From Candidatus Blautia faecavium (GTDB lineage: Bacteria; Bacillota; Clostridia; Lachnospirales; Lachnospiraceae), in NCBI GenBank assembly GCA_019118425.1, contig DWYZ01000105.1, forward strand, positions 1 to 41,244: a stretch of 41,244 nt of DNA. Direction: 5' to 3'. How positions within the stretch are numbered: position 1 is the first letter of the stretch; every line of letters starts with the position of its first letter. Shown piece after piece: positions 5,109 through 20,293 of the stretch. The notes below the pieces were generated by a model. It did no database searches. It saw only the letters and a program-made list of their open reading frames with translations, and was not told where the DNA came from. The position numbers and the translations under genes are program-made.

Positions 5109-5744
5109 ATGACTTACATATCAGAAAGCAATGAAAAGGCAGCCCAGATCCTGAGCAAGGCCTTCACAAAACGTAACATGAAATTCTACTATTGTCCTAC
5201 CATAGAAGAGGCGAAAGGCCAGGTTCTTTCTCTTATCCCGGAAAATTCTTCCGTAAGCTGGGGCGGTTCGGAATCCATGGAAGAGGCCGGCATCATCCAG
5301 GCAGTAAAAGAAGGCCCATACCAGGCGATAGACCGAAAATCCGCAAAGACCCCGGAAGAATCCCGAGCCATTTACGGAAAGATCGTCTGCTGTGATTATT
5401 TTCTTACAAGCACCAATGCCTTCACCAAAGACGGTGAGCTGGTTAATATCGACGGTGCAGCCAACCGTGTAGCCTGTATCAGCCATGGCCCCGCCAATGT
5501 GATCATCCTGGCAAGCATGGATAAAATGTGCGCTTCCGTAGAAGAGGCGGTAAGCCGCGTTCGCACACTTGCCTCTCCCCCCAACGCCATTCGGGTAAAG
5601 GCAAATACTCCCTGCGCCAAAACTGGCGTGTGCGCAGACTGTTTAAGCCCCGACTGTATCTGCTGCCAGATCCTGGTAACACGCTTTTCCAGAGTTCCCG
5701 GCCGTATCCAGGTTATCCTCTGCGGAGAAAAACTAGGCTTTTAA
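5109..5744 (+). CDS. LUD-domain protein (YkgG/LutC, DUF162 type)
   Basis: A 211-residue cytoplasmic protein of the LUD family, named for LutC-type proteins of lactate utilisation. The sequence has typical blocks: SWGGSESMEEAGI, DYFLTSTNAFTKDGELVNIDG, SHGPANVI and the closing Cys cluster (residues about 175-195: CAKTGVCADC, then DCICC), which is common in stand-alone clostridial members and may bind metal. No lutA or lutB gene is near, so a lactate role is only a family guess. ATG 5109 is chosen because AAAGGGGG lies 8 nt upstream; a longer frame from 5007 would read through the repeat element. Promoter at 4872-4900. Its stop overlaps by 4 nt the stop of the convergent gene on the other strand. 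Confidence 0.88.
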   Translation: MTYISESNEKAAQILSKAFTKRNMKFYYCPTIEEAKGQVLSLIPENSSVSWGGSESMEEAGIIQAVKEGPYQAIDRKSAKTPEESRAIYGKIVCCDYFLTSTNAFTKDGELVNIDGAANRVACISHGPANVIILASMDKMCASVEEAVSRVRTLASPPNAIRVKANTPCAKTGVCADCLSPDCICCQILVTRFSRVPGRIQVILCGEKLGF

Positions 5745-6796
5745 AAAGTCTCTCTTCTTTGTGTCTGGGCAATCCCTTCTCTTCTCCAATTAAAGAGAAG
5801 GAGGCCCATACATAAAAAGAAGGAGGTCACAGATAAAAAGATGCTCTTTCCGGTCAGAATCAGGTTTTCCGCCTGCACCACAGTTCTTGATAAAACCAGA
5901 TACAGCCTTAATTTTTCTAGCTCTTCCTGCAGGCGCGCTGGATAAAAAGAAAAGTCCGACCATTTTCCCGGAAGCCATTCTGCAGGAATATGTATATTCT
6001 TATATAAAACCCATGCCAAAACTGCAAGAAGCAGTATACGGATTCCTTTCCATATCCACGCATCTATTTTCTTTTCTTTGCACCTTTTCTCTTCCTTTCC
6101 GGCAGAGACAAAAAATGCCAAGAACATAAGCCCCGGAACCAAGCAAAGCCCAAGGAGGGCACCATTTTCCAAAATCTCCCCTTCTACTGCCGTTCCTGAC
6201 AGACCATAGCTCATTAAAAACTGAGAAACTGTATTTTCTATGCTTTCTCCCTCTTTATATCCCACGAAAACTTTCGTATACGCAGCGTCCCTGTCTTTCG
6301 GATGATAAAGCATGATCCTTTCTTTTAAAGGAAGAACATCCCTGACCTGGTAAGAATCCTCTCCTAAAATGATCTCTCTGCCAATGACCGAAGTACTTCC
6401 GAAAAGCTCCCGGGCTGTTTTTTGATCTACAATACATCCATCTGCATCATTTTCATCCAGACTGTTCATCCTCCAGTCATAGAGGGTGCTGTCCCCCTGG
6501 ATACCTGCCGCAAGAACTTTTGTCTGTCTGCCATATTCTTTTTCATACAGAGTCATCAAACCGCCGTCATAATAAAAGCATAGCCTGGCCGGCTCTTCTT
6601 TTTCTTTTTCCTTTTTCAGAATTTCAGCCGCCTGGACTCCATCCGGCCAGTTATCTGCCAGAAACACGGGAGCTCCGTAAGAAGGAACTATACTCATATA
6701 AGCCTTTAAACTAAAAAAGTAACTCACAAATACCAAAAGCCACAGTACCAGAACCCTTCCCTTTTTTATCAGGGCGGTCTGGGTCCTGCCGCTCAA
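5741..6796 (-). CDS. MacB-like membrane protein without ATPase, last gene of transporter operon
   Basis: A 351-residue protein with one N-terminal membrane segment (about 14-32), an extracellular domain of about 180 residues, and three C-terminal membrane segments (about 213-232, 251-266, 318-336). This 1+3 layout and the segment DENDADGCIVDQKTARELFG...VIGREI resemble the MacB periplasmic core domain (compare SNAAENLFSGENPVGKTIEIG in the permease at 14780-16036). I cannot see the conserved FtsX signature in the last part, and the loop between the last two helices is longer than usual, so it is a divergent relative. Its ATG overlaps the stop of the adaptor gene (ATGA), so the two are translationally coupled. 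No ATPase is encoded in this operon. Exact role unknown. Confidence 0.72.
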   Translation of the reverse strand: MSGRTQTALIKKGRVLVLWLLVFVSYFFSLKAYMSIVPSYGAPVFLADNWPDGVQAAEILKKEKEKEEPARLCFYYDGGLMTLYEKEYGRQTKVLAAGIQGDSTLYDWRMNSLDENDADGCIVDQKTARELFGSTSVIGREIILGEDSYQVRDVLPLKERIMLYHPKDRDAAYTKVFVGYKEGESIENTVSQFLMSYGLSGTAVEGEILENGALLGLCLVPGLMFLAFFVSAGKEEKRCKEKKIDAWIWKGIRILLLAVLAWVLYKNIHIPAEWLPGKWSDFSFYPARLQEELEKLRLYLVLSRTVVQAENLILTGKSIFLSVTSFFLCMGLLLFNWRREGIAQTQRRETF

Positions 6797-8133
6797 CTTT
6801 CCTGCAGCCGTATCCGGCTGCCGTCTTCAATCGCTCTGTCAGAGGAAACAATGATCTCTTCTGTGTTGGCCACTGCTCCATTTACAAGAGCCGCTACTGT
6901 CTCATTTTTATCCTGTACACGTACGTCCACCCGCCGTGCCACCTGTACTTCTCCCAGTACAGAATTTTCCGTATCCACCACATATATGTAGTTGATCCCG
7001 TTTTCTTCATATAGGGCGGACAGCGGTATGCTGGCCGGATACGGACCCGCATCCATAGTGATAGTAAAATCTACGCTTTCTCCAATGGCAAGTGTATTCT
7101 CCGGCACCTTTACGGTAATGATCCTGCTGTCCGGGTCCGTCTCATCCTCCTGGATGCTCTCAATTTCCGCATCCTCTACTTCTGTGCCGCTGCTCCCTGT
7201 TAGAGCAACGCTTCCCCCCACCTGTACATATTCCAGCTGGTCTCCACGTATGCTTCCTTCCATGCGTAGTTCTCCGCCCAGCATATAAAGTATAGCTGCC
7301 GCCTCCTCTGTGGTAGTGCTGCCTGTAGCAGCGGCTATGGATTTTACTACGCCGTCACAGGGAGCGGTTACCCTCCCTTTTCTTTCTTTTAATTTATTTA
7401 GGGCCGCACATTCTTTTTGGGATGTTTCCAGCTGTCTTTTAGCTGTTTCCAGTTCACTGTCTGATGCCTCTTGTTCCTTGGCGTCCTCAATGGCTCTTTT
7501 GGCCTCCAGGACTTCCTGGTTGCGGCTCATAATCACCTGATTCTGTGATTCCTTCTTGGCACGTACGTCATCCCGGAGAGCCTGTTCTGTAGATGCGTCA
7601 GAGCCATCGCTCATAAGACCTTTGTTATTCAGATAATTCTGCAGCTTCTGTTCCGCCACATCCACCTCCATCTGTGCATTTGCCATATTGATGTCGCCGT
7701 TTTCTACAGCCACCCTGTAGTTTTCATCTGCCCGTTCCAGTTCTTTCGCTTTGTTCGCGCTGTCTATACTGGCCTGGCTTTCCAGGTCGCGGACCTTTAA
7801 GGCCAGCTCGTCCCGTTCTGCTGTCTTTTCGTCTATGGCTTTATTTATGGAAGAGGAAGAAAGACTTAAAAGGACCTGCCCTTTTTCCACTGTCTCCCCC
7901 TCCTGTACCAACACCTGTGCTACTTTCAGCCCCTCCCTGGCAAATACAGCCCTTTCTCTGGTACCCTCTACTTTTCCCGTCCCCTCTACTACATGGGAGA
8001 CTATCTTGTTCTGAGGCGTGCTGGTCTGCACCTGAGCTACATTTACAGAGTCCGCCGCTCTGGATAAAAATGTAAAAAGCAGCATGACCACAAAAAACAT
8101 AACAAACCATTTGATCAATCTCTGTCGTTTCAT
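6793..8133 (-). CDS. HlyD/MacA-type membrane adaptor protein
   Basis: A 446-residue membrane fusion (adaptor) protein. It has an N-terminal membrane anchor (about 9-25), a first lipoyl half with VLVQEGETVEKGQVLLSL (about 74-92), a long helical hairpin (about 96-250, rich in E, A, K, Q; the turn region near 165-185 reads NNKGLMSDGSDAS), a second lipoyl half with RVTAPCDGVVKSI, then beta-barrel and membrane-proximal domains. Such proteins link an exporter to its outer partner; in a Gram-positive they work outside the membrane with a MacB-type permease. It is coupled to the MacB-like gene downstream by a 4-nt overlap and lies 70 nt after a sugar-type ABC permease gene. SD GGAGG is 11 nt from the ATG. 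Confidence 0.85.
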   Translation of the reverse strand: MKRQRLIKWFVMFFVVMLLFTFLSRAADSVNVAQVQTSTPQNKIVSHVVEGTGKVEGTRERAVFAREGLKVAQVLVQEGETVEKGQVLLSLSSSSINKAIDEKTAERDELALKVRDLESQASIDSANKAKELERADENYRVAVENGDINMANAQMEVDVAEQKLQNYLNNKGLMSDGSDASTEQALRDDVRAKKESQNQVIMSRNQEVLEAKRAIEDAKEQEASDSELETAKRQLETSQKECAALNKLKERKGRVTAPCDGVVKSIAAATGSTTTEEAAAILYMLGGELRMEGSIRGDQLEYVQVGGSVALTGSSGTEVEDAEIESIQEDETDPDSRIITVKVPENTLAIGESVDFTITMDAGPYPASIPLSALYEENGINYIYVVDTENSVLGEVQVARRVDVRVQDKNETVAALVNGAVANTEEIIVSSDRAIEDGSRIRLQES

Positions 8134-8203
8134 TTTCTATCTATCCTCCTGCTACGCTTTTTTCCTGTTACTGGTCACTGTGTGACATACAGCCTTTTCC
8201 TCT

Positions 8204-9040
8204 CTATTCCTTTAACGCTGTGGAAATAATCCCCTGTTCTAAATAATCCTGTCCTGCCAGAAAAACAAGAAGAGCAGGAAGGAGTACAATCACAGAAGAA
8301 GCAAAAGCCATTCCCGCATCCTCAAGGCTGATATTCGGCAGAAACAAGGACAGCGGCCACAAACTTTTCGTTTTTAAAAAGGCCATGGGCTGTTCAATTA
8401 AATTCCAGTATTCTAAAAATCCCAGCACCATAGCGGAGATGATCCCAGGAGAGCCAAGAGGAAGTCCGATCTTGATAAAAATCTTCAGCTCTCCCGCTCC
8501 ATCCAGCCTTGCGGATTCCAGAAGACTGTCCGGAATCCCTTCAAAAAAACGGTACATAATAAAAACCGGAAACGTGGAAAACACGGCTGGCAAAATGATC
8601 CCTGCAAGGGTATCCAGTAAATGCAGTCTGTCCAATACCAGATAATTGCTCAGCATCATTACCTGAAAAGGCATCATCATAAGGGCAATATATAAGGTAA
8701 AGAGAAACTTTTTTCCCGGAAATGTAAATTTCGCAAATCCCCAGGCCGCCGGCGTTCCGATCAAAAAATGCCCTGCAAGCACACCAAAGGTGATCTTCAC
8801 GGAATTCCAGAACATGATAAAAAATTCCGGCGTATCCAAAAGCACCTCCACGTAAGACCGCAGCGTAGGATACGCGGGAAGCAGCTTCCAGGAAGCATAG
8901 CCATTCCCAGAAGAAAGGACAGGTCCTAAAAGCTCTCCCAGCTCCACATTTCCCATAAGCGACCCTGCCATCAGAAACACCACTGGAAAAACCACGATCC
9001 CTGCCAGGAGAAATACTAAGCCGGTCAATATCTTTCTCAT
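8204..9040 (-). CDS. Carbohydrate-type ABC permease, MalG/AraQ family
   Basis: A 278-residue inner permease subunit of a binding-protein-dependent importer, with six predicted membrane segments starting at residue about 5. The ATPase-docking EAA loop is clear: ESARLDGAGELKIFIKIGLP. It begins 4 nt after the other permease gene, as a pair, and a GGGGGA Shine-Dalgarno lies within the end of that gene. No ATPase gene accompanies it, as is usual for clostridial sugar transporters that share one MsmX/UgpC-type ATPase encoded elsewhere. The likely binding protein is the 785-residue protein at 10867-13224, which has a matching promoter. Substrate unknown. Confidence 0.92.
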   Translation of the reverse strand: MRKILTGLVFLLAGIVVFPVVFLMAGSLMGNVELGELLGPVLSSGNGYASWKLLPAYPTLRSYVEVLLDTPEFFIMFWNSVKITFGVLAGHFLIGTPAAWGFAKFTFPGKKFLFTLYIALMMMPFQVMMLSNYLVLDRLHLLDTLAGIILPAVFSTFPVFIMYRFFEGIPDSLLESARLDGAGELKIFIKIGLPLGSPGIISAMVLGFLEYWNLIEQPMAFLKTKSLWPLSLFLPNISLEDAGMAFASSVIVLLPALLVFLAGQDYLEQGIISTALKE

Positions 9041-9044
9041 ACGC

Positions 9045-9896
9045 TTATTCCCCCTTGTCCCATGCCTTTTGCAGGATCAGGATCAGCCCCAGAATCACTG
9101 CCCCTGTCACTACTGCCGCCGCAGCCATCTTATCCATAGAAAGCTCCCTGTACCAGTTATTAAAAAGGTGCTGTAGAAGATACATATCTTCCTGGGGATA
9201 GTCGCCTGCCACCAGATAAGCTTCCCGAAATACTTTAAACGCATTTAAAAGGGAAAGTACCACAATAGTAAACAAAGACGGCAAAAGATTGGGCAGGGTG
9301 ATGTCTGTAAAACATCTCCACTCTCCGGCCCCATCTACCCTTGCCGCTTCGTACAGGGATTGGGAGATGGCTGAAAGCCCTGCCACCCACAGTACGATAT
9401 CATATCCCAGATTTCTCCACAGATAGCTCACCACCAGCACAGAAAAGGACGCGCTTGTATTCATCCAGTCGATTCCTTCTATGGAAAGGAAGGACAGCAG
9501 ATGATTCAGCAGGCCTTGGCTGTGAAACAGTACCTTCCATAAAAGGACAACAGAGGCCACCGGAATGGCCATGGGCAGAAGAAACATACTTTTTGTCAGC
9601 TGAACCCATTTTTTCTGTTTTGTTATGATCACAGCGATCACCAGGGACAAGACTACCAGTATAGGTATGCAGATTCCGAAAAAACGCAGCGTATTTTTAC
9701 ACGCCAGACGAAATGCCTGATTAGTAAAAATCACCTTGTAGTTTTCTATTCCCGTAAATTCTTCCGTCACCGCGCTAAAAAAAGACCGCCGGATTACGTC
9801 TATATACGGAATCACCCAAAACACACAGACTCCCGCGAAACTTGGGAGCAAAAACATAAGCCCTTTTAATTGGCGTATTTTCATAAATATTTTCAC
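9045..9896 (-). CDS. Carbohydrate-type ABC permease, MalF/UgpA family
   Basis: A 283-residue permease subunit with six membrane helices and the EAA loop EAARVDGAGEWRCFTDITLP. It forms the heterodimer partner of the permease encoded immediately downstream. First gene of a four-gene minus-strand operon (permease, permease, adaptor, MacB-like protein). The start is uncertain: GTG 9896 gives this length but sits directly on the AAGGAA site, while ATG 9884 (in frame, four residues shorter) is about 13 nt away from it. The promoter at 9913-9945 carries the two-component operator described there. Confidence 0.9.
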   Translation of the reverse strand: MKIFMKIRQLKGLMFLLPSFAGVCVFWVIPYIDVIRRSFFSAVTEEFTGIENYKVIFTNQAFRLACKNTLRFFGICIPILVVLSLVIAVIITKQKKWVQLTKSMFLLPMAIPVASVVLLWKVLFHSQGLLNHLLSFLSIEGIDWMNTSASFSVLVVSYLWRNLGYDIVLWVAGLSAISQSLYEAARVDGAGEWRCFTDITLPNLLPSLFTIVVLSLLNAFKVFREAYLVAGDYPQEDMYLLQHLFNNWYRELSMDKMAAAAVVTGAVILGLILILQKAWDKGE

Positions 9897-9912
9897 TTCC
9901 TTTACTTTCTTT

Positions 9913-9945
9913 AAGATAACACAGGAATCTCTAAAAAATCTCTAA
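9913..9945 (-). promoter_or_regulatory. Two-component-regulated promoter of the ABC/adaptor operon
   Basis: On the minus strand: repeat TTAGAGATTTT (9935-9945), repeat TTAGAGATTCC (9924-9934), 5 bp TGTGT, then -10 TATCTT (9913-9918). The 11-bp spacing of the two repeats is one helical turn, as in sites for OmpR/PhoB-family regulators. No -35 consensus exists at 16-18 bp, so activation by a regulator bound at the -35 position is likely. The same layout occurs at 9953-9985, 13310-13342 and 13369-13401. Confidence 0.7.
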
Positions 9946-9952
9946 GGGATCT

Positions 9953-9985
9953 TTAGAGGTTTTTTAGAGATTTTTGTGTTAGAAT
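9953..9985 (+). promoter_or_regulatory. Two-component-regulated promoter of the response regulator
   Basis: Repeat TTAGAGGTTTT (9953-9963), repeat TTAGAGATTTT (9964-9974), TGTGT, then -10 TAGAAT (9980-9985). Arrangement and spacing are identical to the divergent promoter 7 bp away, so the two sets of boxes form one large inverted repeat. This indicates autoregulation of the response regulator. Confidence 0.7.
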
Positions 9986-10064
9986 AAAAGTATATTGGGA
10001 GTGCTCTGGCCAAAAAGCTTTTGGTTTTCAGAGCAAAAAAGCAAAGAAATCTGGAGGGATGATC

Positions 10065-10748
10065 TTGAGAATTTTAATGATCGAAGATGATAAAGAATTG
10101 TGCGAGGCCACGAAATACCGTCTGGAAAAAGAGGACTTTCAGGTGGATGTCTGCCATGACGGAGAAGAAGGCTTGTATTATATGCAGGAAAACATCCACG
10201 ACCTGGTAATCCTTGACCGTATGCTCCCGTCTATGGACGGGGTTTCTCTTTTACGAGAGGCCAGGCGTACCCATGTATCCACACCGGTTATTTTTCTCAC
10301 TGCTTTAGGGGAATTAAACGATAAGATTACCGGGCTTGATTGCGGAGCAGACGATTACATGGTAAAGCCCTTTGCCTTTGAAGAACTGCTGGCGCGGATC
10401 CGCTGTCTGATGCGCCGTCCTGGAAAATGGGACGATTCCTCCCTGTTAAAGCTTGGAGACATCACCTTTGACCCGGAGAATAACCGGCTTTTCAAAGGCA
10501 CCAAAGAATGCACTCTTTCAAAAAGAGAAGGCGCCTTAATGGAGGTTTTTCTGCGCAATCCCGGCCAGACGCTTACCAGAACCGTCCTTTTAAACCGGGT
10601 ATGGGGACTGGACAGCGATGTGGAGGAAGGGAATCTGGATAACTACATTCATTTTCTCCGCCGCCGCTTAAAATCCGTAGACAGTTCCCTGGTCTTAAAA
10701 ACTGTCCGCGGCATTGGCTATCAGCTTGAGGTCCTGCTTTATCCATAA
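10065..10748 (+). CDS. OmpR/PhoB-family response regulator
   Basis: A 227-residue DNA-binding response regulator. The receiver domain (about 1-115) has the acidic pocket IEDD, phospho-acceptor Asp in VILDRMLPSMDG (residue 51 from this start), the FLTA switch Thr and the VKPF lysine. The winged-helix DNA-binding domain fills the second half (FDPENNRLFKG...LSKREGALMEVFLRNPG...VWG...VRGIGYQLE). I prefer TTG 10065, which lies 6 nt after GGAGGG and gives MRILMIEDD as in the family; ATG 10059 directly abuts the GGAGGG. Its kinase partner is encoded at 13462-14754, separated by the binding-protein gene on the opposite strand. The repeats in all four nearby promoters are the natural candidate binding sites. 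Confidence 0.93.
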   Translation: MRILMIEDDKELCEATKYRLEKEDFQVDVCHDGEEGLYYMQENIHDLVILDRMLPSMDGVSLLREARRTHVSTPVIFLTALGELNDKITGLDCGADDYMVKPFAFEELLARIRCLMRRPGKWDDSSLLKLGDITFDPENNRLFKGTKECTLSKREGALMEVFLRNPGQTLTRTVLLNRVWGLDSDVEEGNLDNYIHFLRRRLKSVDSSLVLKTVRGIGYQLEVLLYP

Positions 10749-10807
10749 AAGCAGGGTCTTCAGCAAAAATGTACATCAATGCATCTAATTTTTTCTATAT
10801 TAAAAGA

Positions 10808-10856
10808 AGCGCACATCCTTGGCTCAATTTCCAAGGATGTGCGCTCTCTTTATTTT
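10808..10856. terminator. Bidirectional terminator between response regulator and binding-protein gene
   Basis: A perfect 15-bp stem (AGCGCACATCCTTGG with CCAAGGATGTGCGCT) around an 8-nt loop at 10808-10845. It is followed on the plus strand by a T-rich run and on the minus strand by TTCTTTTAA. It serves the two convergent genes ending at 10748 and 10867. Confidence 0.85.
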
Positions 10857-10866
10857 TCTTTTTCTT

Positions 10867-13224
10867 TTATTCTGACAGGTAAAGGTTTACTTCCTGGATC
10901 GCGGCCCTTGCCGCTTCCTCCAGTCCGATCTCACCGTTCAGATAACGCGCGCCGGCTTCTGATACTGCGTTTAAGATAATCTGATTTGTCCTGGAAGGGA
11001 CGGTAAGTGTTTTGCCAAGTTCCTGAATCCTGCTGATGGCCTCATCTGAAGGCTGCAGGATATCCATCTCTATAGTTTCTCCTGTCTCCGTATTCGAAGA
11101 ACCCATAACAGAAACCACACCGTCTTTGCCTCCTAAATCCCAATAGGTCTCTCCTTCATAAGCTGCCTGGTTTACCGGAAATCCTGTACTTCCTGACATT
11201 TCCTGGCTTGACTGGCTAAAGAGATATTCTACGAACCGCTGTGCCGCGTCCTTTTCCTGCGCTTTCGCACTGATGCCGATCACAGAGCAGGGAATAAAAA
11301 CATTCTCTGCCTGCCCGTTCCATAAAGCGCTTGTAAGAGAATTATCCTTTTGTTCCGCAGAATAAACAAACGAAAGCTGGTCTGCAGAATACAGCCCTCC
11401 CAGGCTGGCGACAAAGGTCCCTCCTAAAAGGTTCAGGCTTCCCGTACTGACCCCATAGGAGAATCGGTCGTATTCTGATTCCGACAGGTAGCTAAGCTCA
11501 TCCTCTGAAAGCGATTCCTTCATGATCTCTGCATAAGTCTGATATATTCGGTTCGCCTGCTTGAGATACTCTGAAATTTCTGTTTCGTTTAAAGTTCCGT
11601 CCTCATTGACCCATGCAGGGGAGGAAGTATCTGCCAGGCTCTGAAGCAGCAGCTTTGGAGAAACAATCAGAGAGATAGGCATCTTTGTGGCACCGTACTC
11701 TGCCTGATGAGACTCCAGCATATCCGCCAGTGTAGTCAGGTCGGTCACTGCATTTACGTCTTCTGTCTTACCCTGGATCATAGGAATTCCAAAACGCAGA
11801 GGCATGCAGTAGATGGCGCCATCCTCCTGGGTGTAGGCATTTTTAATATTTTCCAGTATCCCGCCTTCTGTATTTTCCAGGATGCCGCTTATATCCTCCA
11901 GCATACCATTCTCTATATAGGTATCCTCCGGAATCCCATCCAGGATCAGGATATCCGGACCTTTGCCGGCCATGATCTCAGTATTTAAGGCTTTTATGGC
12001 GTCGCTGGCAGTCACCGCGTCTTCTCCTGTCATACCGGTCTGGAGATTCAGATAAATGTCAGGATTTTCTTTTTGGAATGCACCGGCTGCCTGTCTCAGC
12101 AGACTGTTGTCTGTTAAAGAATAAATTGTAAGCTCTGTGTCTGGAACGGAAGGCGTGTCTTTTGAATATTCATACCTCAGCAGCCTGGCCGGACTGGCCG
12201 TTCCCTGGCCGTAATCTCTGACCGCCAGATAAAATCTCCCTTCTCCGTCCATAGCCAGCTCTACCAGGGACAGATCCGGAGAGCTTAAGCTATTCAGACT
12301 TCCATTGATGATCTGCTCCGTTACGCTTCCTCCGAAAACATACCGGTACATTCCCTGGCTGTCCGCGAAGAACATGCTGTCCTCCTCATCTCCGGCCACA
12401 GCCACTACAGGATACTGCCCCACACCGCTAAGTTCCAGATTAGAACTATTGGAAGAAATCTGATCCGTCAGCGCTTGCTGGTCATCCATAGGCTGTCCTG
12501 ATTCCAAATCATAATAATGGATCCCGTCTGCGCTGACTGTGATCAAATGGTTTCCCACTGCAAAGAAATAAGAGAGCATAACCCCTTTTTCATATTCTCC
12601 TAAAACACTTCCATCTGAGAGATCCACCTCGATCACGCCGTCTGCAAGTACTGCCAAAAGAAGCGTGCCCCGGTCTGTAAATGCGCTGCTGAATCCAAAA
12701 CCATTTCCCAGATTGTCTGCCAGATCTAGTTCTTTTGTTTCTCCCGATGGGTTTGCATAGAAATACTTGCTGGACTCTAGCATATCATCTTCAGAAGCCG
12801 TAAGATCCGAAGCCACGGCAAAAACTCCGCCGTCTTTCGCCAGCTTAGGAAAGCTCAGGGAATACTTTGAACTGTCAAGACCGAAAAGCTGATAAAGAGA
12901 GGTTTCCTCTCCCCAGGTTTCCCCTCCGTCCAAAGAGTCTGCGTAAACCATTTCGTTGTCTCCATTATAACCGCAGATACGAAGCCTTCCATCCTCCAGA
13001 ACTGTCATAGATTCTATGGCATTGAATCCCTCTGGAATCTGGATATCTTCCTCCAGATAGCGGCCCATAGCCGTATCGCCGCTATTTTGGGAATTCTCCT
13101 CCGTGGCCTCCTCCTGATTGGATGCCTTGGCCAGTTCTCCTTTGTATATACTCATACTGCCCACTGCCAGAGCCACTGCGGCAGTCATGGCAATCCCTCG
13201 TACCAGTTTTTTTCTACGTTTCAT
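10867..13224 (-). CDS. Beta-propeller plus extracellular solute-binding fusion protein
   Basis: A 785-residue exported protein. An N-terminal signal-like segment (about 8-35, ending in a possible AKA cleavage site) contains no lipobox cysteine, unusual for a Gram-positive binding protein. Residues about 55-360 are a repeat-rich beta region with an Asp-box (SLDGGETW, 97-104) and recurring short beta units, which suggests a propeller. Residues about 363-785 look like an ABC family-1 sugar-binding protein: TELTIYSLTDNSLLRQAAGAFQ, KENPDIYLNL, GKGPDILILDG, EDISGILE, and GISAKAQEKDAAQRFVEYLF. It is transcribed alone from the promoter at 13310-13342, whose operator matches those of the permease operon, regulator and sensor kinase. 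This suggests it feeds the two permeases, senses the signal for the kinase, or both. Ligand unknown. SD AAAGGAGA is 6 nt before ATG. Confidence 0.83.
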   Translation of the reverse strand: MKRRKKLVRGIAMTAAVALAVGSMSIYKGELAKASNQEEATEENSQNSGDTAMGRYLEEDIQIPEGFNAIESMTVLEDGRLRICGYNGDNEMVYADSLDGGETWGEETSLYQLFGLDSSKYSLSFPKLAKDGGVFAVASDLTASEDDMLESSKYFYANPSGETKELDLADNLGNGFGFSSAFTDRGTLLLAVLADGVIEVDLSDGSVLGEYEKGVMLSYFFAVGNHLITVSADGIHYYDLESGQPMDDQQALTDQISSNSSNLELSGVGQYPVVAVAGDEEDSMFFADSQGMYRYVFGGSVTEQIINGSLNSLSSPDLSLVELAMDGEGRFYLAVRDYGQGTASPARLLRYEYSKDTPSVPDTELTIYSLTDNSLLRQAAGAFQKENPDIYLNLQTGMTGEDAVTASDAIKALNTEIMAGKGPDILILDGIPEDTYIENGMLEDISGILENTEGGILENIKNAYTQEDGAIYCMPLRFGIPMIQGKTEDVNAVTDLTTLADMLESHQAEYGATKMPISLIVSPKLLLQSLADTSSPAWVNEDGTLNETEISEYLKQANRIYQTYAEIMKESLSEDELSYLSESEYDRFSYGVSTGSLNLLGGTFVASLGGLYSADQLSFVYSAEQKDNSLTSALWNGQAENVFIPCSVIGISAKAQEKDAAQRFVEYLFSQSSQEMSGSTGFPVNQAAYEGETYWDLGGKDGVVSVMGSSNTETGETIEMDILQPSDEAISRIQELGKTLTVPSRTNQIILNAVSEAGARYLNGEIGLEEAARAAIQEVNLYLSE

Positions 13225-13309
13225 TTTGTTCTCCTTTCTGACGCATTCTACCCATAGGGCACAACGACTGCGTCAATAACAGTAGATGGTTTTCTTGATC
13301 GACTTCATC

Positions 13310-13342
13310 ATCATAACAGGGTTTTCTCTAAAAAATCTCTAA
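13310..13342 (-). promoter_or_regulatory. Two-component-regulated promoter of the binding-protein gene
   Basis: On the minus strand: repeat TTAGAGATTTT (13332-13342), repeat TTAGAGAAAAC (13321-13331), 5 bp CCTGT, -10 TATGAT (13310-13315). Spacing is identical to the other three promoters of the group. Confidence 0.7.
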
Positions 13343-13368
13343 AAATCTTTTTTTCATTTTCGATAATT

Positions 13369-13401
13369 TTAGAGAAACCTTTGAGATTTCTGTGATATGA
13401 T
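13369..13401 (+). promoter_or_regulatory. Two-component-regulated promoter of the sensor kinase
   Basis: Repeat TTAGAGAAACC (13369-13379), weaker repeat TTTGAGATTTC (13380-13390), TGTGA, then -10 TATGAT (13396-13401). The divergent binding-protein promoter lies 26 bp away. The start codon of the kinase is about 60 bp downstream. Confidence 0.65.
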
Positions 13402-13461
13402 AGGAACAACAGTAAGAAAAACTTATTTCTAACTCATTATAACAGGAAGAAGGATATTTTT

Positions 13462-14754
13462 ATGTTTAAAAAACTGCATATACAAATGACAATATTTTCT
13501 ACCTTTATTACCAGCATTATCCTGATCGCCATGACTCTGATCTGCCTTTTCATCTCAGAATCCAGTCTTCGGCAAAACAGCTATTCTACCTTTTCTAATA
13601 ATGTAGGTTCCTGTATCGCTTACCTGGAAAGCCAGTCCATCCTGTCTCATCAATGGCTCTCCCAGGCGGAAAACAATTACGGTATAAAAATAGAAGTCCG
13701 TGATAACAATAAGCCTTTATTCTACGGAAAACTCAACGAAAAAGCTTCCGACACGGAACTATTTGAAAAAGCCGTATCCATCTCCCGGGAAGCCTATGCT
13801 CTGGATCTGGAAAACCTTGCCTCTGCAAAAGCCCTGACCCAGAGCGAACAATTCCAGATGGACGGCTACTATGCAGCTACCGCCTTAATTCCAAAATCCA
13901 ATGGAACTTTAAGCGCCATCTTCCTCTGCCCTTTAGACGACCTGAACAGCCAGCTTTTGTTTATGCGCCTTGCATTTGCCATCGCTGTTTTTGTCGCTGT
14001 GCTTGCGCTTTTTATTTTTTCCTGGTTTTTTACCCGGAAAATGCTCCTTCCTATAGAAAAAAGCAGAAAAAGTCAGACGGAATTTATTGCCTCCGCCTCC
14101 CATGAACTTCGTTCTCCCCTTGCGGTAATCCGTTCCGGCATTTCGGCTATGGAAAAGGCTTCTCCTCAAGAAACCGCTCATTTTACTGCCATCATCCAAA
14201 AAGAGAGCGATCGTATGGCTCATCTGGTGGACGACATGCTTTCCCTGGCAAACGCGGATAACCATTCCTGGAAAATGCTTCCGGCTCCTTGTGAGCTGGA
14301 TACCCTCTTACTGGAAACCTATGAGAAATACGAACCTCTTGCACGCAAAAAACAGCTTACGCTTAAGATCCAGCTTCCTGATGAGCCCTTGGACCCATGC
14401 CCCTGTGATTCCTCCAGGATCTCACAAGTACTCTCTATCCTTGTAGACAATGCCATAAGCTATACACCGGAAAACGGAACGATCCTCCTCTCCCTTTCCC
14501 AAAAAGAAACGACTTTTCTTCTTTCTGTAGCGGATAATGGGCCGGGGATTCCTGACAGTTCCAAAGATTCTGTATTTCAAAGGTTTTACCGGGCCGATTC
14601 TTCCAGAAATGATAAACAGCACTTCGGCCTTGGCCTTTCCATTGCCCGGGAAATCCTCCAGCTTCACCATGGAACAATCCGTATAACAGATACCCCCGGA
14701 GGCGGAGCTACCTTCCTGATCAGCCTTCCTGGCACATGGAAGGACAAAAAATAA
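13462..14754 (+). CDS. Membrane sensor histidine kinase
   Basis: A 430-residue orthodox sensor kinase. Two membrane helices (about 8-32 and 166-191) enclose an extracytoplasmic domain of about 130 residues. There is little room for a full HAMP domain; the phospho-acceptor helix follows directly (ASHELRSPLAVI, His 214). The ATPase part shows the N box (QVLSILVDNAISYTP, Asn 330), DNGPGIP (358-364), the F box and HFGLGLSIAREI. It should phosphorylate the response regulator at 10065-10748; both promoters share the same boxes. The gene ends at a terminator shared with the convergent export operon. AGGAAGAAGGA lies about 9 nt before the ATG. Confidence 0.93.
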   Translation: MFKKLHIQMTIFSTFITSIILIAMTLICLFISESSLRQNSYSTFSNNVGSCIAYLESQSILSHQWLSQAENNYGIKIEVRDNNKPLFYGKLNEKASDTELFEKAVSISREAYALDLENLASAKALTQSEQFQMDGYYAATALIPKSNGTLSAIFLCPLDDLNSQLLFMRLAFAIAVFVAVLALFIFSWFFTRKMLLPIEKSRKSQTEFIASASHELRSPLAVIRSGISAMEKASPQETAHFTAIIQKESDRMAHLVDDMLSLANADNHSWKMLPAPCELDTLLLETYEKYEPLARKKQLTLKIQLPDEPLDPCPCDSSRISQVLSILVDNAISYTPENGTILLSLSQKETTFLLSVADNGPGIPDSSKDSVFQRFYRADSSRNDKQHFGLGLSIAREILQLHHGTIRITDTPGGGATFLISLPGTWKDKK

Positions 14755-14781
14755 AGCGAGGGCAACCCCGCTTTATTTTTT
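14746..14781. terminator. Bidirectional terminator between sensor kinase and export operon
   Basis: A 13-bp stem AAAAAATAAAGCG with CGCTTTATTTTTT, extended by GGG/CCC after one bulged base and closed by a CAA loop. The A and T tracts at the two ends make it work in both directions, and it includes the ends of both convergent reading frames. Confidence 0.85.
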
Positions 14782-16036
14782 ATTCACTTCTAAGCGCATC
14801 AATTGGATTTAAATTTGCCGCCTTATAAGACGGAAGCAGACCAAAGATCAATCCGATCATCATAGAAAAGACAACCGATCCGATAATCGCCGGTATACTG
14901 ATGGCCGTAGGAGAGCCGGACACCCTGGCCACTACTCTGGAAAGTCCGATCCCTGATATTACTCCGATTACTCCGCCGATGCTGGTAAGAACCGAGGCCT
15001 CTGTTAAAAACTGAGCCATGATCGTTTTTTTACGGGCTCCAATCGCTTTTTTCAGTCCGATCTCACTGGTTCGCTCTGTAACAGACACCAGCATGATATT
15101 CATTACACCAATACCTCCCACCAAAAGAGAAATACTTGCGATCCAAATCAGCTGCTGGTTTGTGCTTTCACTTAACCTTTGAAGATTACGCACCCGTTCC
15201 ATCACATCATCTGCCCGGTATTCATAGTTTGTACTGGACGTATTGACAATTCCTTCTTTCAGGACATCTGCCGCGGCGTTTCCCGCACTGCTCATATTAT
15301 CTGTACTGTCTGCCTTAATAATGGCATTTTCCGGTTCATCGTAACTAAAAACAATAGGCCAGCTTGCGCTTGGAATCATTATACATCCCATCATCGTCTG
15401 GAAATACTCATAGAACTGTGAGATATCTTCGATATTGGGAAGAAAATCTTCATTCTGATGAACAACGCCTACCACAATAAAAGGTTCTGAACCGATCTCA
15501 ATGGTCTTTCCCACTGGGTTTTCTCCTGAAAATAAATTTTCCGCCGCATTGCTGTCGACCAGAGCCACCTTATTATATCCGTCATAATCCTCCTGGAGAA
15601 AGCCTCTTCCAAGCTGTACCGAATAACCGCAGGTATCCAGATAATTCATATCCACCCCGTATACGCTTCCCCCTTGGAATGCTGTATTCTGATAATACAC
15701 ACTGGAGGTGTAAGAACGGCTGTAATAAAAAGTAGCGTTTTCCACATGATCCAGTTCCAGAACTTTATCCTTTTGTTCCTGAGATATGACCGGCGGGGTT
15801 CCTCCTGACATTCCGAACTCTGTGTCATAGGGATTATCTCCGTCATACAAAGTAATGGTCACTGTATTATTCCCCGAACCGATCAAGTCTTCCTTAATCT
15901 GTTCGCTTGTTCCTTTTATAGTAGATACAATTGCGATAATTGATGCAATACCAATGATAATACCCAGCATTGTCAGGAAGGATCTCATCTTATGGGACCA
16001 GATTCCTTGAAACGACAGTCTGATATTTTCAATCAT
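14780..16036 (-). CDS. MacB/FtsX-type ABC exporter permease
   Basis: A 418-residue permease of the MacB type: N-terminal membrane helix in SHKMRSFLTMLGIIIGIASIIA, an extracellular MacB core domain of about 230 residues, then three helices with the FtsX-type signature SISLLVGGIGVMNIMLVSVTERT, EIGLKKAIGARK and GLLPSYKAANLNPIDALR. It works with the separate ATPase encoded at 18030-18710 and the adaptors of the same operon to export a substrate or to drive work outside the membrane. It is the last gene, 14 nt after the stop of the large adaptor. SD AAGGAGGG is well placed. Confidence 0.94.
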   Translation of the reverse strand: MIENIRLSFQGIWSHKMRSFLTMLGIIIGIASIIAIVSTIKGTSEQIKEDLIGSGNNTVTITLYDGDNPYDTEFGMSGGTPPVISQEQKDKVLELDHVENATFYYSRSYTSSVYYQNTAFQGGSVYGVDMNYLDTCGYSVQLGRGFLQEDYDGYNKVALVDSNAAENLFSGENPVGKTIEIGSEPFIVVGVVHQNEDFLPNIEDISQFYEYFQTMMGCIMIPSASWPIVFSYDEPENAIIKADSTDNMSSAGNAAADVLKEGIVNTSSTNYEYRADDVMERVRNLQRLSESTNQQLIWIASISLLVGGIGVMNIMLVSVTERTSEIGLKKAIGARKKTIMAQFLTEASVLTSIGGVIGVISGIGLSRVVARVSGSPTAISIPAIIGSVVFSMMIGLIFGLLPSYKAANLNPIDALRSE

Positions 16037-16050
16037 GAAATCCCTCCTTT

Positions 16051-18033
16051 TTAATATCCGTACATTTCCTCTAAAGTAACTTCTCTCGTTTTCGCGCCTT
16101 CTTTAATGTCGCTTCCATAAGGGAAGGCTACCTTATCATCCATAGACAGGCCTCCTTTAACAAGGATATAATAGCCTCCGTTTACACTTCCTCCTACAGA
16201 AAGCACCTGGCGCTTCAATACTCCGTTATCATCCTTATAAACGTAATTGTTTCCGTTTTCTGTAAGCACAAATTCCCTTTGTATGATAAAACTTCCTTCC
16301 GGAAGGTCTTCACTGGGAAGAGTGATCGTCACATATTCCATATCAGAAAATTTTAAAGATTTATCACTTACTACCGCACTGAATGTATAATAAGAAACAT
16401 TGGGATTTCCAGTTCCATAGTAAAACGAACTGGAATCTGTGGGATAATCCGACACATCTACCACCTGGGCTTCAAAACCGCCCATTCCCACCTCACTGTA
16501 GCTCATACAGTTTATGGTCATTCCTTCCTGAAGTTTATCCAACATCAATTCACTGATAGAACCTCTTACATAAAAACCATCCCTGCTCTGTACAGTAATA
16601 AAAGCACTTCCGTCAGAAGAAGCAGTTGCCGAATTTCCCACATGGGATACCGTTCCGTCCAGTTTGCTGTAAATCATTTTTTTCTGTGCAGTTTTTTCCA
16701 GTTTAGCTATATTGATCTCGCTTTCCTGGATATCCAGCTTTAAGCTGCTGATGCGATTCTGCTGTATTTTAATAGCCTCTTCTCTTGTCATAGTGGATAC
16801 ATTGGAATCCGAACCTCCTCCGGAAATATTGTCATCCGGATATTCCGGCTCCAGATTTTCTTCATACTGTGAAGCCCCTTCAATGGTAAAATCCGTCTCA
16901 ACCAGCATGTCCACCGGTTTCTCCAGAGTACTTCCGTCTATGAGATAATATCCAATGCAGGACTCTCTCCGATTGGAAAAATTAGTGATCGTATCATTCT
17001 GATGGAATTCCAGTTGATACCAGTATCCTCCCTCTTTCACCACCGTGGATCCATCCGGGGTATATCCTGCCATTTTATTTAGAAAACCACCTGTCACTGT
17101 TACCAGTCCCTTCGCAGAACCGCACAGGAAAATAAAAGGATCTTCCTCTGTTCCGCTGCCCTTAAAAGGAACAGTCTCATCATCAAGCTTTGCATAAAAT
17201 TCAGGATTCCCGTCATGGATGTCATCGTTTCCATCTGTAAAATAAGGATCATAATAATCCGTATCATCATCCAAAGCAGGAGTCGGCGTCAAAGTAGGCG
17301 ATGGAGACGGAGACGGTGTAGGAGCATCATCCAATCCGGAATCAAACCCAGAATCGTTGGAATCCCCTCCTGTTCCTTCCTCTCCCTCCAAGACATCGTT
17401 TGGTTCGCTTGCCTCCTGATCACTTCCGTCCTGATCACTTCCATCGTCAAAGAGATTTCCATCATAAAAGCTCGTCAGCAGCAAAGGCTGCATCACAGAG
17501 GCCAGGTAGACTCCAGTCCGGCCATTTCCTGCTGATGCCACCGGGCTTAATTCCTCATCGCTTCCGGAAATAGTCACATCTGAATCAGAACTGTCCAAAT
17601 TATCTGCATTATAATAACTATCCGTATCCTCGATCGGACCGCCGTTTCTTAAACTGTTCAGACGATTTACCGCCGTTGTCAGATTTTGTTCCTGCTGCTG
17701 CTTTTTTAATCGGGCAATATTCAGTTCCATCTCCACAAGGGTAGTGTCAAAAGAAACCAGAGGATCTCCCACCGATACCTGACCGCCCTCTTCCACATAG
17801 ACCTCCTGAACGATCATATCCGAATCTACAGTCACATTCTGCGATACATTCGTAGTGATCTGTCCATCCAAAGTAGTCTCATCTGAATAATATGTCCCCG
17901 TGACGCTTCCCACACTTACGACCATCACTTCCGTTTGGTTCATCTGCCTTATGTAGATCAGCCCGCCGGAGACTGCGCCGGCCACCAAAGCCACTACCAA
18001 AATACCGATAATGACTTTTTTTACCTTGCTCAT
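16051..18033 (-). CDS. Adaptor (membrane fusion) protein with a large domain inserted in the hairpin
   Basis: A 660-residue adaptor. Membrane anchor at about 6-28, first lipoyl half VYVEEGGQVSVGDPLVSF (about 78-95), first hairpin helix (about 97-130), second helix (about 413-452), second lipoyl half SKLDGTVSHVGN (456-467), then barrel and membrane-proximal domains to the end. Between the two helices, where most adaptors have a short turn, about 280 residues are inserted: an acidic Ser/Asp/Gly-rich linker, a Pro/Ser/Thr track (PTPSPSPSPTLTPTP, 238-252), and a compact part (about 277-390; EEDPFIFLCGSAKGLVTVTG, GYWYQLEFHQND) with a Cys pair (304, 359). Overlaps the ATPase gene by 4 nt (ATGA). 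Substrate unknown. Confidence 0.87.
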   Translation of the reverse strand: MSKVKKVIIGILVVALVAGAVSGGLIYIRQMNQTEVMVVSVGSVTGTYYSDETTLDGQITTNVSQNVTVDSDMIVQEVYVEEGGQVSVGDPLVSFDTTLVEMELNIARLKKQQQEQNLTTAVNRLNSLRNGGPIEDTDSYYNADNLDSSDSDVTISGSDEELSPVASAGNGRTGVYLASVMQPLLLTSFYDGNLFDDGSDQDGSDQEASEPNDVLEGEEGTGGDSNDSGFDSGLDDAPTPSPSPSPTLTPTPALDDDTDYYDPYFTDGNDDIHDGNPEFYAKLDDETVPFKGSGTEEDPFIFLCGSAKGLVTVTGGFLNKMAGYTPDGSTVVKEGGYWYQLEFHQNDTITNFSNRRESCIGYYLIDGSTLEKPVDMLVETDFTIEGASQYEENLEPEYPDDNISGGGSDSNVSTMTREEAIKIQQNRISSLKLDIQESEINIAKLEKTAQKKMIYSKLDGTVSHVGNSATASSDGSAFITVQSRDGFYVRGSISELMLDKLQEGMTINCMSYSEVGMGGFEAQVVDVSDYPTDSSSFYYGTGNPNVSYYTFSAVVSDKSLKFSDMEYVTITLPSEDLPEGSFIIQREFVLTENGNNYVYKDDNGVLKRQVLSVGGSVNGGYYILVKGGLSMDDKVAFPYGSDIKEGAKTREVTLEEMYGY

Positions 18034-18710
18034 TCCTTCACCTCTTTCTCCCGCAGCACTCCATCACGTATGGTCACTACGCGTCTGGCATGGGATGCAA
18101 TTTCCGGGTCGTGTGTGATCATCAGTACTGTTACGCCCTCCTCATTCAGTCTTTGAAACAATTCCATTACCTGCGCTCCTGATTTACTGTCCAAAGCTCC
18201 CGTAGGCTCATCTGCCAAAAGCAGCTTCGGACTGTTCACAATTGCTCTGGCAATGGCCACGCGCTGCATCTGGCCTCCGGAAAGCTGATTCGGCTTAAAA
18301 TCCACTCGATCAGAAAGCCCTACCCGATCTAATGCCTTTAAGGCCTTTTCCCGCCGAAGCTTTTTAGGAACCTTGGCATAATTTAAAGGCATCTCCACAT
18401 TAGACAACGCACTCTGCCGGGGCAGAAGGTGAAAGCTCTGAAATACGAATCCGATCTTATGAAGCCGAATATCCGACATCTCATTCTCTGAACAGGACCT
18501 GATATCCTTTCCATCCAGGATGAAGCTTCCCTCTGTAGCCTGATCCAGGCATCCGATTATATTCATCAATGTGGTCTTACCGGAACCGGACGGTCCCATG
18601 ATCGCCACATATTCTCCTTCTTCCATAGAAAAATTCACATCTTTTAATACAGGAACCTTCATTTTTCCCTGCAGATACTCTTTATAGATTCCTTTTAATT
18701 CCAAGATCAT
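18030..18710 (-). CDS. MacB/LolD-type ABC transporter ATPase
   Basis: A 226-residue ATP-binding subunit. Walker A GPSGSGKT (39-46), Q loop in FVFQSFHLLPR, signature LSGGQMQRVAIARA, Walker B LLLADEPTGALD and the switch His in MITHDPEIA are all present. It belongs to the family that pairs with MacB-type permeases, here the one at 14780-16036. It overlaps both neighbours by 4 nt (upstream adaptor at 18707, downstream adaptor at 18033), which indicates tight coupling in the order adaptor, ATPase, adaptor, permease. Confidence 0.96.
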   Translation of the reverse strand: MILELKGIYKEYLQGKMKVPVLKDVNFSMEEGEYVAIMGPSGSGKTTLMNIIGCLDQATEGSFILDGKDIRSCSENEMSDIRLHKIGFVFQSFHLLPRQSALSNVEMPLNYAKVPKKLRREKALKALDRVGLSDRVDFKPNQLSGGQMQRVAIARAIVNSPKLLLADEPTGALDSKSGAQVMELFQRLNEEGVTVLMITHDPEIASHARRVVTIRDGVLREKEVKE

Positions 18711-20143
18711 TCTGATTCCTCCACATCTTCCACGACAGCTTCCTCTGATCCCGGCGCGTCCTCTATAGGTACCAGCTCTTCGTCAGGCAAATCCGATCCC
18801 GTATCGGATTCCACGATCTCTCCGTTCATATCCGTTATAACTTCACCGCTTGTATCTGCTTCCATATCTACGCTGTCATCTCCTATGGCGGCATCTGTTC
18901 CTGAAGATATGCCGAAAGATTCATCACTGGATATAGCCGTCATGCCTTCCTGAAGATTTTCCGCAGGATAAGCAATAGAGTCCTCTAGAGAAAGTCCTTC
19001 AACGATCTCATATTCACTCAGAGACTCATCGTACTGTCCGAGAATGACCTCTCTTTTTTCCAGACGTCCGTTCTCATCAGCAGCCCATACATAAGGGTCT
19101 GTACTGTCCGCGTCTACGATCATAAATTCGCTGAGCCAAAGGCCTTCCTTCTGGTCCTCCTGTCCGTTATCAAGCTCTATGTATACATGCTGCCCCAGCA
19201 TCAAGCCATCTGACGAATCCAATTCCACATAAAAAGGATACGTACTGGAAGTTGTCTGGCTGTTTGAAGTATCCATGCTGTACATAGATGTGCTGCTGTT
19301 CTCCGTAGTGGCATTCTCTCTGTCCACTACGCCTACAGTCCCTCTCCAAATCTCTTCTTCATCCACACGGGAACGTATGATAACAGGTACTCCTTCTGAA
19401 ATATACTGGATATTCTGCTCATTTACATATCCTTTAACTCGGTATGCACCTGTACTTAATATGGTAATAAAAGCGCCGCTGCTTCCGTCCGTATTCATAC
19501 TGTCATAGCTGGACGTCTGCTCCAGACTGTCCCCCTCATCAGACGACAGCTGTGTGGTATCGATCTTCTGGATCACTCCGTCTATCTCACTGCGCACTTC
19601 CGTATTGGCAGTGGCATTCTGCAGCTGATCAATTTGTGCCTGAGTACTCTTCTGATCATACTGATTCTTCTGCAGATTCATACGGTTCGTCTCGATTTCT
19701 ATGGTATAAGACAACTGGCTGTCCTGGCTGGCCTGCTTTTTTTCATTTTCCAGGGTGCTGATCTGTTCCTGGAGGCTTAACGCCTCATTTTTTAGACGGT
19801 CAAGAGCAAGCTGCTGCTCCTGAAGGCTCTGCTGAATGCTGCTGAGATCATACTCAAACAAGAGCTGTCCCTGTTTTACTTCCTGACCTTCCTCCACTTG
19901 CACTTCCGTTACCTTGCGGTCGCTTTCAATCTTTACCTCTACTGTTTCCTGTGGTTCTATTACCCCTGCGTATCTATTTTCGGTTCCGGAGGAATATCCT
20001 GTGATGGTACTGACGCTGGATACATAAGCGCTCTCTCCGTCAGCCACATTCTGACTGCTGTCACGAATCCCGAACCAGTAGATGCCGCCTGCCGCTGCAG
20101 CGACAACAAGAATCCCCCCGACAGCAAAAATGCCTTTCTTCAT
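18707..20143 (-). CDS. MacA/HlyD-type adaptor with acidic C-terminal tail
   Basis: A 478-residue adaptor, first gene of the MacAB-like operon. It has a membrane anchor (about 4-24), first lipoyl half EVQVEEGQEVKQGQLLFEY, a helical hairpin (about 101-180, Gln-rich), second lipoyl half RSEIDGVIQKID, then barrel domains. The last ~75 residues (about 405-478) are very acidic (many Asp/Glu, Ser, Gly) and should extend outside the cell. ATG 20143 is chosen because GGAGG lies 5 nt upstream; the in-frame ATG 20155 overlaps that ribosome site. A second, larger adaptor sits in the same operon, so the complex may use two different adaptors. Confidence 0.9.
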   Translation of the reverse strand: MKKGIFAVGGILVVAAAAGGIYWFGIRDSSQNVADGESAYVSSVSTITGYSSGTENRYAGVIEPQETVEVKIESDRKVTEVQVEEGQEVKQGQLLFEYDLSSIQQSLQEQQLALDRLKNEALSLQEQISTLENEKKQASQDSQLSYTIEIETNRMNLQKNQYDQKSTQAQIDQLQNATANTEVRSEIDGVIQKIDTTQLSSDEGDSLEQTSSYDSMNTDGSSGAFITILSTGAYRVKGYVNEQNIQYISEGVPVIIRSRVDEEEIWRGTVGVVDRENATTENSSTSMYSMDTSNSQTTSSTYPFYVELDSSDGLMLGQHVYIELDNGQEDQKEGLWLSEFMIVDADSTDPYVWAADENGRLEKREVILGQYDESLSEYEIVEGLSLEDSIAYPAENLQEGMTAISSDESFGISSGTDAAIGDDSVDMEADTSGEVITDMNGEIVESDTGSDLPDEELVPIEDAPGSEEAVVEDVEESE

Positions 20144-20293
20144 ATTTACCTCCAATCATGAATCTCTTAATATTATTTCATTGCTTAATCATACCAGATT
20201 CTGCTCCAAAAGGAAAGTCTAGAAGGAAATCACTTCAATTTTCACAAAAAATTCATCCTTTTTTTATAATAAATGTACATATTTTAGGCTTTT

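Follow-up and report, generated by a model that had tools for sequence, protein, structure and literature searches.

The window analysed here, contig C309 (DWYZ01000105.1, 41,244 nucleotides) of 'Candidatus Blautia faecavium', carries four promoters of a single design. They lie two apiece in two divergent gaps (9897-10064 and 13225-13461), and each consists of two direct TTAGAG-type half-sites followed by an extended -10 element. From this layout and its recurrence in related bacteria, the four sites are very probably the operators of the OmpR/PhoB-type response regulator encoded at 10065-10748, which would activate its own sensing and transport module through them. The genome assembly amounts to 3.50 Mb in 318 contigs and is 91.7% complete.

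All four sites fit the pattern TTWGAG-N5-TTWGAG-N10-TANNNT with zero mismatches, and 100 dinucleotide shuffles of the window contain no match. In every case the half-sites have a period of 11 bp and are followed by 10 nt to the -10 element. On the minus strand of the first gap, the promoter of the permease-adaptor operon (9913..9945) has boxes at 9945-9940 and 9934-9929 and the extended -10 element TGTTATCTT. That of the regulator gene (9953..9985, plus strand) has boxes at 9953-9958 and 9964-9969, and the extended -10 element TGTTAGAAT. In the second gap the promoter of the binding-protein fusion (13310..13342, minus strand) has boxes at 13342-13337 and 13331-13326 and the element TGTTATGAT, and that of the kinase gene (13369..13401, plus strand) has boxes at 13369-13374 and 13380-13385 and the element TGATATGAT. 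With the home locus left out of the model, the four sites score 29.3, 29.2, 30.3 and 24.8, respectively. The pairs at 9945-9929 (-), 9953-9969 (+) and 13342-13326 (-) are TTAGAG/TTAGAG, and the pair at 13369-13385 (+) is TTAGAG/TTTGAG. The -10 hexamers, in the same order, are TATCTT, TAGAAT, TATGAT and TATGAT, and each is directly preceded by TGn, giving an extended -10 (TGnTAnnnT). The original prediction had described one identical layout for all four promoters, which direct reading and the pattern search bear out; its TGTG(T/A) element includes the TGn of the extended -10. It had also described them as lacking a -35 hexamer, and a sigma-70 scan of 9850-13500 (TTGACA, 16-18, TATAAT) agrees, finding 0 promoters compared with a mean of 4.9 in shuffles.

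The reading of these repeats as operators is supported by comparison. The window was set beside the best 80 of 497 regulator loci, making 81 in all, drawn from Blautia, Marvinbryantia, Murimonas, Robinsoniella and other genera, as well as Angelakisella and Anaerotruncus, with the module genes located by tblastn. A profile of 72 sites, chosen by their half-sites and -10 element, reads TTTAGAGAAAnTTTAGAGAT; the positions before the -10 are T in 85% and G in 89%, although TG was no selection criterion. A box model of 21 positions, with the home locus left out and the -10 unscored, was applied to 251 upstream regions of the four genes (fusion, permease 1, regulator and kinase). At least 10 bits are reached by 144 of these and at least 14 bits by 133, compared with 1.05 and 0.05 expected from dinucleotide shuffles. 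Among the second set of controls, seven other genes of the region, only 1 of 188 upstream regions is boxed, that of permease 2 in L107, ~4 kb from permease 1. A reversed-sequence control was dropped: owing to the mirror symmetry of TTAGAGATTTTTTAGAGATT, the model also matches the reversed string (at least 14 bits in 14 of 81 reversed regulator regions and 11 of 61 for permease 1). The recognition helix of the regulator is nearly invariant across the 81 orthologue rows compared, a figure biased by the inclusion of the helix in the patterns used to fetch the loci; paralogue rows, some of them in the wrong frame, were left out.

The boxes also follow the architecture of the operons. In most of the distant loci the regulator and kinase genes are adjacent and run in one direction, while the fusion, permease and adaptor genes are consecutive in the other. 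In Blautia-type loci those operons are split, and the boxes track the split. Counting as boxed any region with at least 10 bits, or at least 8 bits with a -10 in place, permease 1 is boxed at 24 of 24 operon heads but at only 1 of 37 operon-internal copies, and the kinase gene at 19 of 21 heads but 1 of 55 internal copies; most of the operon-head cases belong to one clade and are not independent events. The regulator gene, always an operon head, is boxed in 69 of 81 loci. With one locus taken per 85% regulator cluster (59 clusters), the counts are 17 of 17 heads and 1 of 29 internal copies for permease 1, 13 of 15 and 1 of 40 for the kinase, and 49 of 59 for the regulator. The neighbour rule behind these counts was widened to any module gene upstream after exceptions had been noticed, and both tables are reported: under the narrower rule of the earlier table the values were 23 of 27 versus 1 of 33 for permease 1 and 20 of 23 versus 0 of 53 for the kinase. 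The four unboxed permease-1 cases, rated 'not adjacent' by that rule, actually lie behind a second copy of the fusion gene. The first fusion copy is boxed in 51 of 58 scored loci, 50 of them with the -10 in place (6 truncated loci were excluded). Of the seven unboxed cases, the two that were inspected (L064 and L076) have another gene at the head of the operon, and the box precedes that gene.

The distance from the boxes to the -10 is similarly conserved. TANNNT stands exactly 10 nt past the second box in 128 of the 142 boxed regions with enough sequence, and TG precedes it in 113. The next offsets are 5 nt (23 regions) and 15 and 21 nt (18 each), or, if TG is required, 21 nt (8 regions). At the regulator promoters of L081, L083, L097, L102 and L104 the boxes lie at 21 nt, a shift away from the -10 of exactly one helical turn. 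Arrays of three or four boxes with an 11-bp period also occur, in L075, in L111 and before the kinase gene of L051. Because the boxes keep their phase, at 10 nt or one turn further, the arrangement speaks for contact with RNA polymerase and hence for activation. In the circuit we propose, the kinase (13462-14754) would phosphorylate the regulator, a dimer of which would occupy the pair of half-sites, spaced by one turn (11 bp), in head-to-tail orientation. The dimer would cover about -39 to -23, the position of a -35 hexamer, and would recruit RNA polymerase to the extended -10 (class II activation). The fusion gene, the permease/adaptor operon, the regulator gene and the kinase gene would thereby be switched on, so that sensing and transport would rise together, with positive feedback.

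The same regulator on the same sites could instead repress, by covering the -35 region of self-sufficient extended -10 promoters. We consider this unlikely. Extended -10 promoters can function without a -35 hexamer, and TGn is present at all four promoters. However, a repressor would tolerate other distances, whereas the boxes stand at a constant 10 nt from the -10 or, shifted by one turn, at 21, and the -10 hexamers (TATCTT and TAGAAT, for example) are not all near the consensus.

As exact matches, the sites are specific to the module in this genome and largely so among its relatives. The genome contains exactly four copies of the full pattern, all of them in the window. With up to two mismatches allowed there are 28 genome-wide matches, the four sites included, compared with 40 for a reversed-pattern control, and weaker genomic sites are indistinguishable from chance matches. 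The genome has 6 bare half-site pairs compared with 3 for the control. A single mismatch is seen at one further place (on contig C296), which lacks TG and is followed by nothing but a frame of 70 codons, 344 nt downstream. Among 61 genomes searched, 18 carry an orthologue of the regulator at 60% identity or more (that of G007 is split over contigs). Twelve of these 18 have exact full sites at the module, as against none of the 43 others. The 61 genomes hold 26 such places, of which 23 are at the module (the four in the window included), and the control pattern yields 2. Two of the 43 orthologue-free genomes each contain a single TTTGAG-type site that is not near a module gene. When 250 genomes, each from a different genus of the family, were scanned motif-first, 20 places were found compared with 0 for the control, with strict sites in 15 of the genomes, our own included. 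Three of the places come from our own genome and 17 from 14 others; of these 17, 15 stand before a fusion, permease-1 or regulator gene and the other 2 before the gene of a small lipoprotein. At one of these sites (L225) the fusion match begins ~0.7 kb downstream. Since identical sites recur in both (L218, L220, L224 and L227), the motif-first and 80-locus sets overlap.

The regulon had been predicted to be closed. At the level of exact full sites the 91.7%-complete genome is consistent with this, as it holds no other one, but some relatives have unlinked sites. In G072, G078 and G079 these precede members of a lipoprotein family (L197, L199, L201, L206 and L211), and the stretches fetched around them show no match to the regulator, the kinase, the fusion or a permease. 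L198 resembles the other lipoprotein loci without a clear start, and in L200 the contig ends. The family, of ~180-223 residues, lies behind TTAGAG boxes also in L218, L223, L076 and L082, adjacent to the regulator or apart from it, depending on the genome; one member tested has no Pfam match. In G062 a site precedes a fusion gene next to an FtsZ-like gene (L205; FtsZ was named by eye from the sequence), with no regulator or kinase neighbour within the 5 kb fetched. Two further candidates for unlinked fusion genes (L207 and L208) were ruled out, as a regulator and a kinase stand beside each; these are further boxed regulator-kinase-fusion sets of Robinsoniella.

A second alternative, that another OmpR-type regulator of the genome uses the sites, alone or jointly with that at 10065-10748, appears less probable still than repression. 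The genome contains 47 matches to the regulator, and in relatives near-identical boxes precede the genes of kindred regulators themselves (L202-L204, L212 and L213). We take the regulators of L202-L204 to be VanR-like; in the group L202-L204 and L209, boxes such as TTAAAG/TTAGAG precede regulators of this type and a D-Ala-D-Ala carboxypeptidase gene. The boxes of the kindred regulators are similar to TTAGAG-type boxes but unequal to them (L212, L213 and L202-L204), which suggests that kindred operator codes exist and makes the TTAGAG code, as judged from sequence, one of a broader group of related specificities. Against a different binder, exact sites accompany the orthologue of the 10065-10748 regulator (12 of 18 genomes versus 0 of 43), boxes precede its own gene in 69 of 81 loci, and in its own genome no exact site precedes any gene outside the module. 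The first two of these comparisons, together with the boxes at whichever gene leads a rearranged operon, support the original view of one OmpR/PhoB-type regulator, which would act at the operon heads of the module, its own gene included.

Several observations nevertheless weigh against activation of the whole module by this regulator. No exact site is found in 6 of the 18 genomes with an orthologue. The regulator gene has no recognisable box in 12 of the 81 loci, including the close relatives L038, L040, L043, L044 and L050, so control of the regulator's own gene does not appear to be constant across loci. The loss of the repeats in close relatives that keep the genes, named beforehand as the outcome that would speak against the regulon, thus occurs in part, at the regulator gene of these 12 loci, while 69 keep the box. 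Kinase boxes are the weakest of the four in the 26 Blautia-type loci, where the median scores are 28.1 bits for the fusion, 23.5 for permease 1, 17.8 for the regulator and 14.2 for the kinase; of the two kinase operon heads counted as unboxed, L058 has a weak box and L067 none. Many loci are kin to one another, and the counts do not represent independent events. As kindred regulators have similar boxes, the binder is identified by association, and since the promoters are of the extended -10 type, regulator-free transcription or repression may also be compatible with them.

It is highly improbable that the repeats in the gap at 9897-10064 serve as a terminator or form an RNA hairpin instead of being operators. 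The stretch 9926-9972 was scored terminator-like on the plus strand, but its inverted repeat results from the back-to-back arrangement of two similar sites. In many relatives the site is single or the two sites are spaced differently, unpaired sites stand at other operon heads, and the sites hold a fixed distance to the -10.

The layout resembles that of known class II promoters. The CiaR site of streptococci is described as TTTAAG-N5-TTTAAG-N10-TATAAT (PMC3091779); CiaRH likewise has an OmpR-family regulator, direct half-sites N5 apart and 10 nt to the -10. However, the half-site is TTTAAG there and TTAGAG here, and CiaR serves 15 scattered promoters in S. pneumoniae rather than four promoters of one module (PMC3091779). 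The recognition helix also differs (VVEVYVSKVRKKL in CiaR, NLDNYIHFLRRRL here). Given these differences in half-site and helix, the regulator is not a CiaR member, although the layout is like that of CiaR or PhoP class II promoters. In Salmonella, PhoP boxes are described as functioning 12, 23 and 33 nt before the -10, turn-wise distances comparable to the 10 and 21 nt found here, and the head-to-tail dimer site over the -35 and the inclusion of the regulator's own gene are also shared; the half-site, (T/G)GTTTA, the many architectures and orientations and the wide regulon are not (PMC3335776). For BAS0540-BAS0541, gel shifts are reported in which a Gram-positive OmpR-type regulator binds NTTAAG-N5-TTTAAG, its own gene included (PMC4938410). 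The family, the N5-spaced pairs and the own-gene site, here known from sequence alone, are common to both systems, but the half-site of BAS0540-BAS0541 is CiaR-like and its targets are scattered (PMC4938410). The regulator scores 196 bits with the PhoB model TIGR02154, under the cut-off of 296.2; the 25 NCBIfam regulator models among the matches listed all fall short of their cut-offs. No description of the half-site or the module was found in the open-licence PMC literature, as judged by titles and abstract openings.

The regulator (10065..10748, plus strand) consists of a receiver domain (PF00072, 1.9e-27) and a winged-helix Trans_reg_C domain (PF00486, 1.2e-18). A longer frame begins at ATG 10059, but the predicted start, TTG 10065, is probably correct; in many orthologues the alignment begins at residue 3 of that frame. 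The sensor histidine kinase (13462..14754, plus strand) matches PF02518 and PF00512. On the minus strand, the fusion gene (10867..13224), single-copy in the genome, encodes 785 residues with a sugar-type solute-binding domain (PF13416, PF01547), for which the best Foldseek matches are sugar-binding proteins. Its AlphaFold2 model has a mean predicted local distance difference test (pLDDT) of 84.7; the strand-rich N-terminal part (~53-360), with S-DGG-TW in its consensus, is presumably propeller-like (Asp-box). The fusion gene occurs in tandem copies inside one operon in L072, L076, L094 and L112. In L064 a 345-residue gene (8567-9604) stands behind a box; judged by eye, its start is similar to the N-terminal part of the fusion, and Pfam shows no binding domain. 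A terminator-like hairpin in both directions (10807..10846, from the terminator scan) separates the regulator and fusion genes.

The permease-adaptor operon (5741-9896, minus strand) combines sugar-type importer permeases, an HlyD-like adaptor and a MacB-like part, with an ATPase for neither system, and this gene set recurs in many Lachnospiraceae loci. For permease 1 (9045..9896, PF00528), ATG 9884 is a likelier start than GTG 9896, to judge from the ribosome-binding site. This gene is followed by permease 2 (8204..9040, PF00528), the adaptor (6793..8133, PF13437) and the ATPase-less MacB-like permease part (5741..6796, PF12704 slightly below the cut-off), whose model (mean pLDDT 90.3) and fold matches resemble parts of the MacB, YknZ and LolCDE permeases. 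The module operons contain no ATPase gene, and the two OB_MalK-type ATPases of the genome are on other contigs. Adjoining the kinase gene is a MacAB-like set (14780-20155; two adaptors, an ATPase and an FtsX-type permease), which is kept beside the module, without boxes, in many Blautia-type loci. Its inclusion in the regulon was rejected, since none of the 72 regions scored upstream of its four genes attains 10 bits.

The regulon may, though we put this forward only tentatively, mark an unnamed envelope module in which the ATPase-less importer, the fusion, the MacA/MacB-like parts and the kinase form one sensing complex, self-amplifying and read via TTAGAG-N5-TTAGAG, that spans Lachnospiraceae and some neighbouring Clostridia and is duplicated in places. 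BceAB-BceS is an example of a sensory transporter. The sites provide an operator sequence with strong comparative support for an uncharacterised two-component system of gut bacteria, and the TTAGAG code makes its regulon searchable from raw DNA. One circuit would unite sugar importer, HlyD, MacB-like and two-component genes, which annotation would list apart, and its short promoters would be ready reporters for finding the signal.

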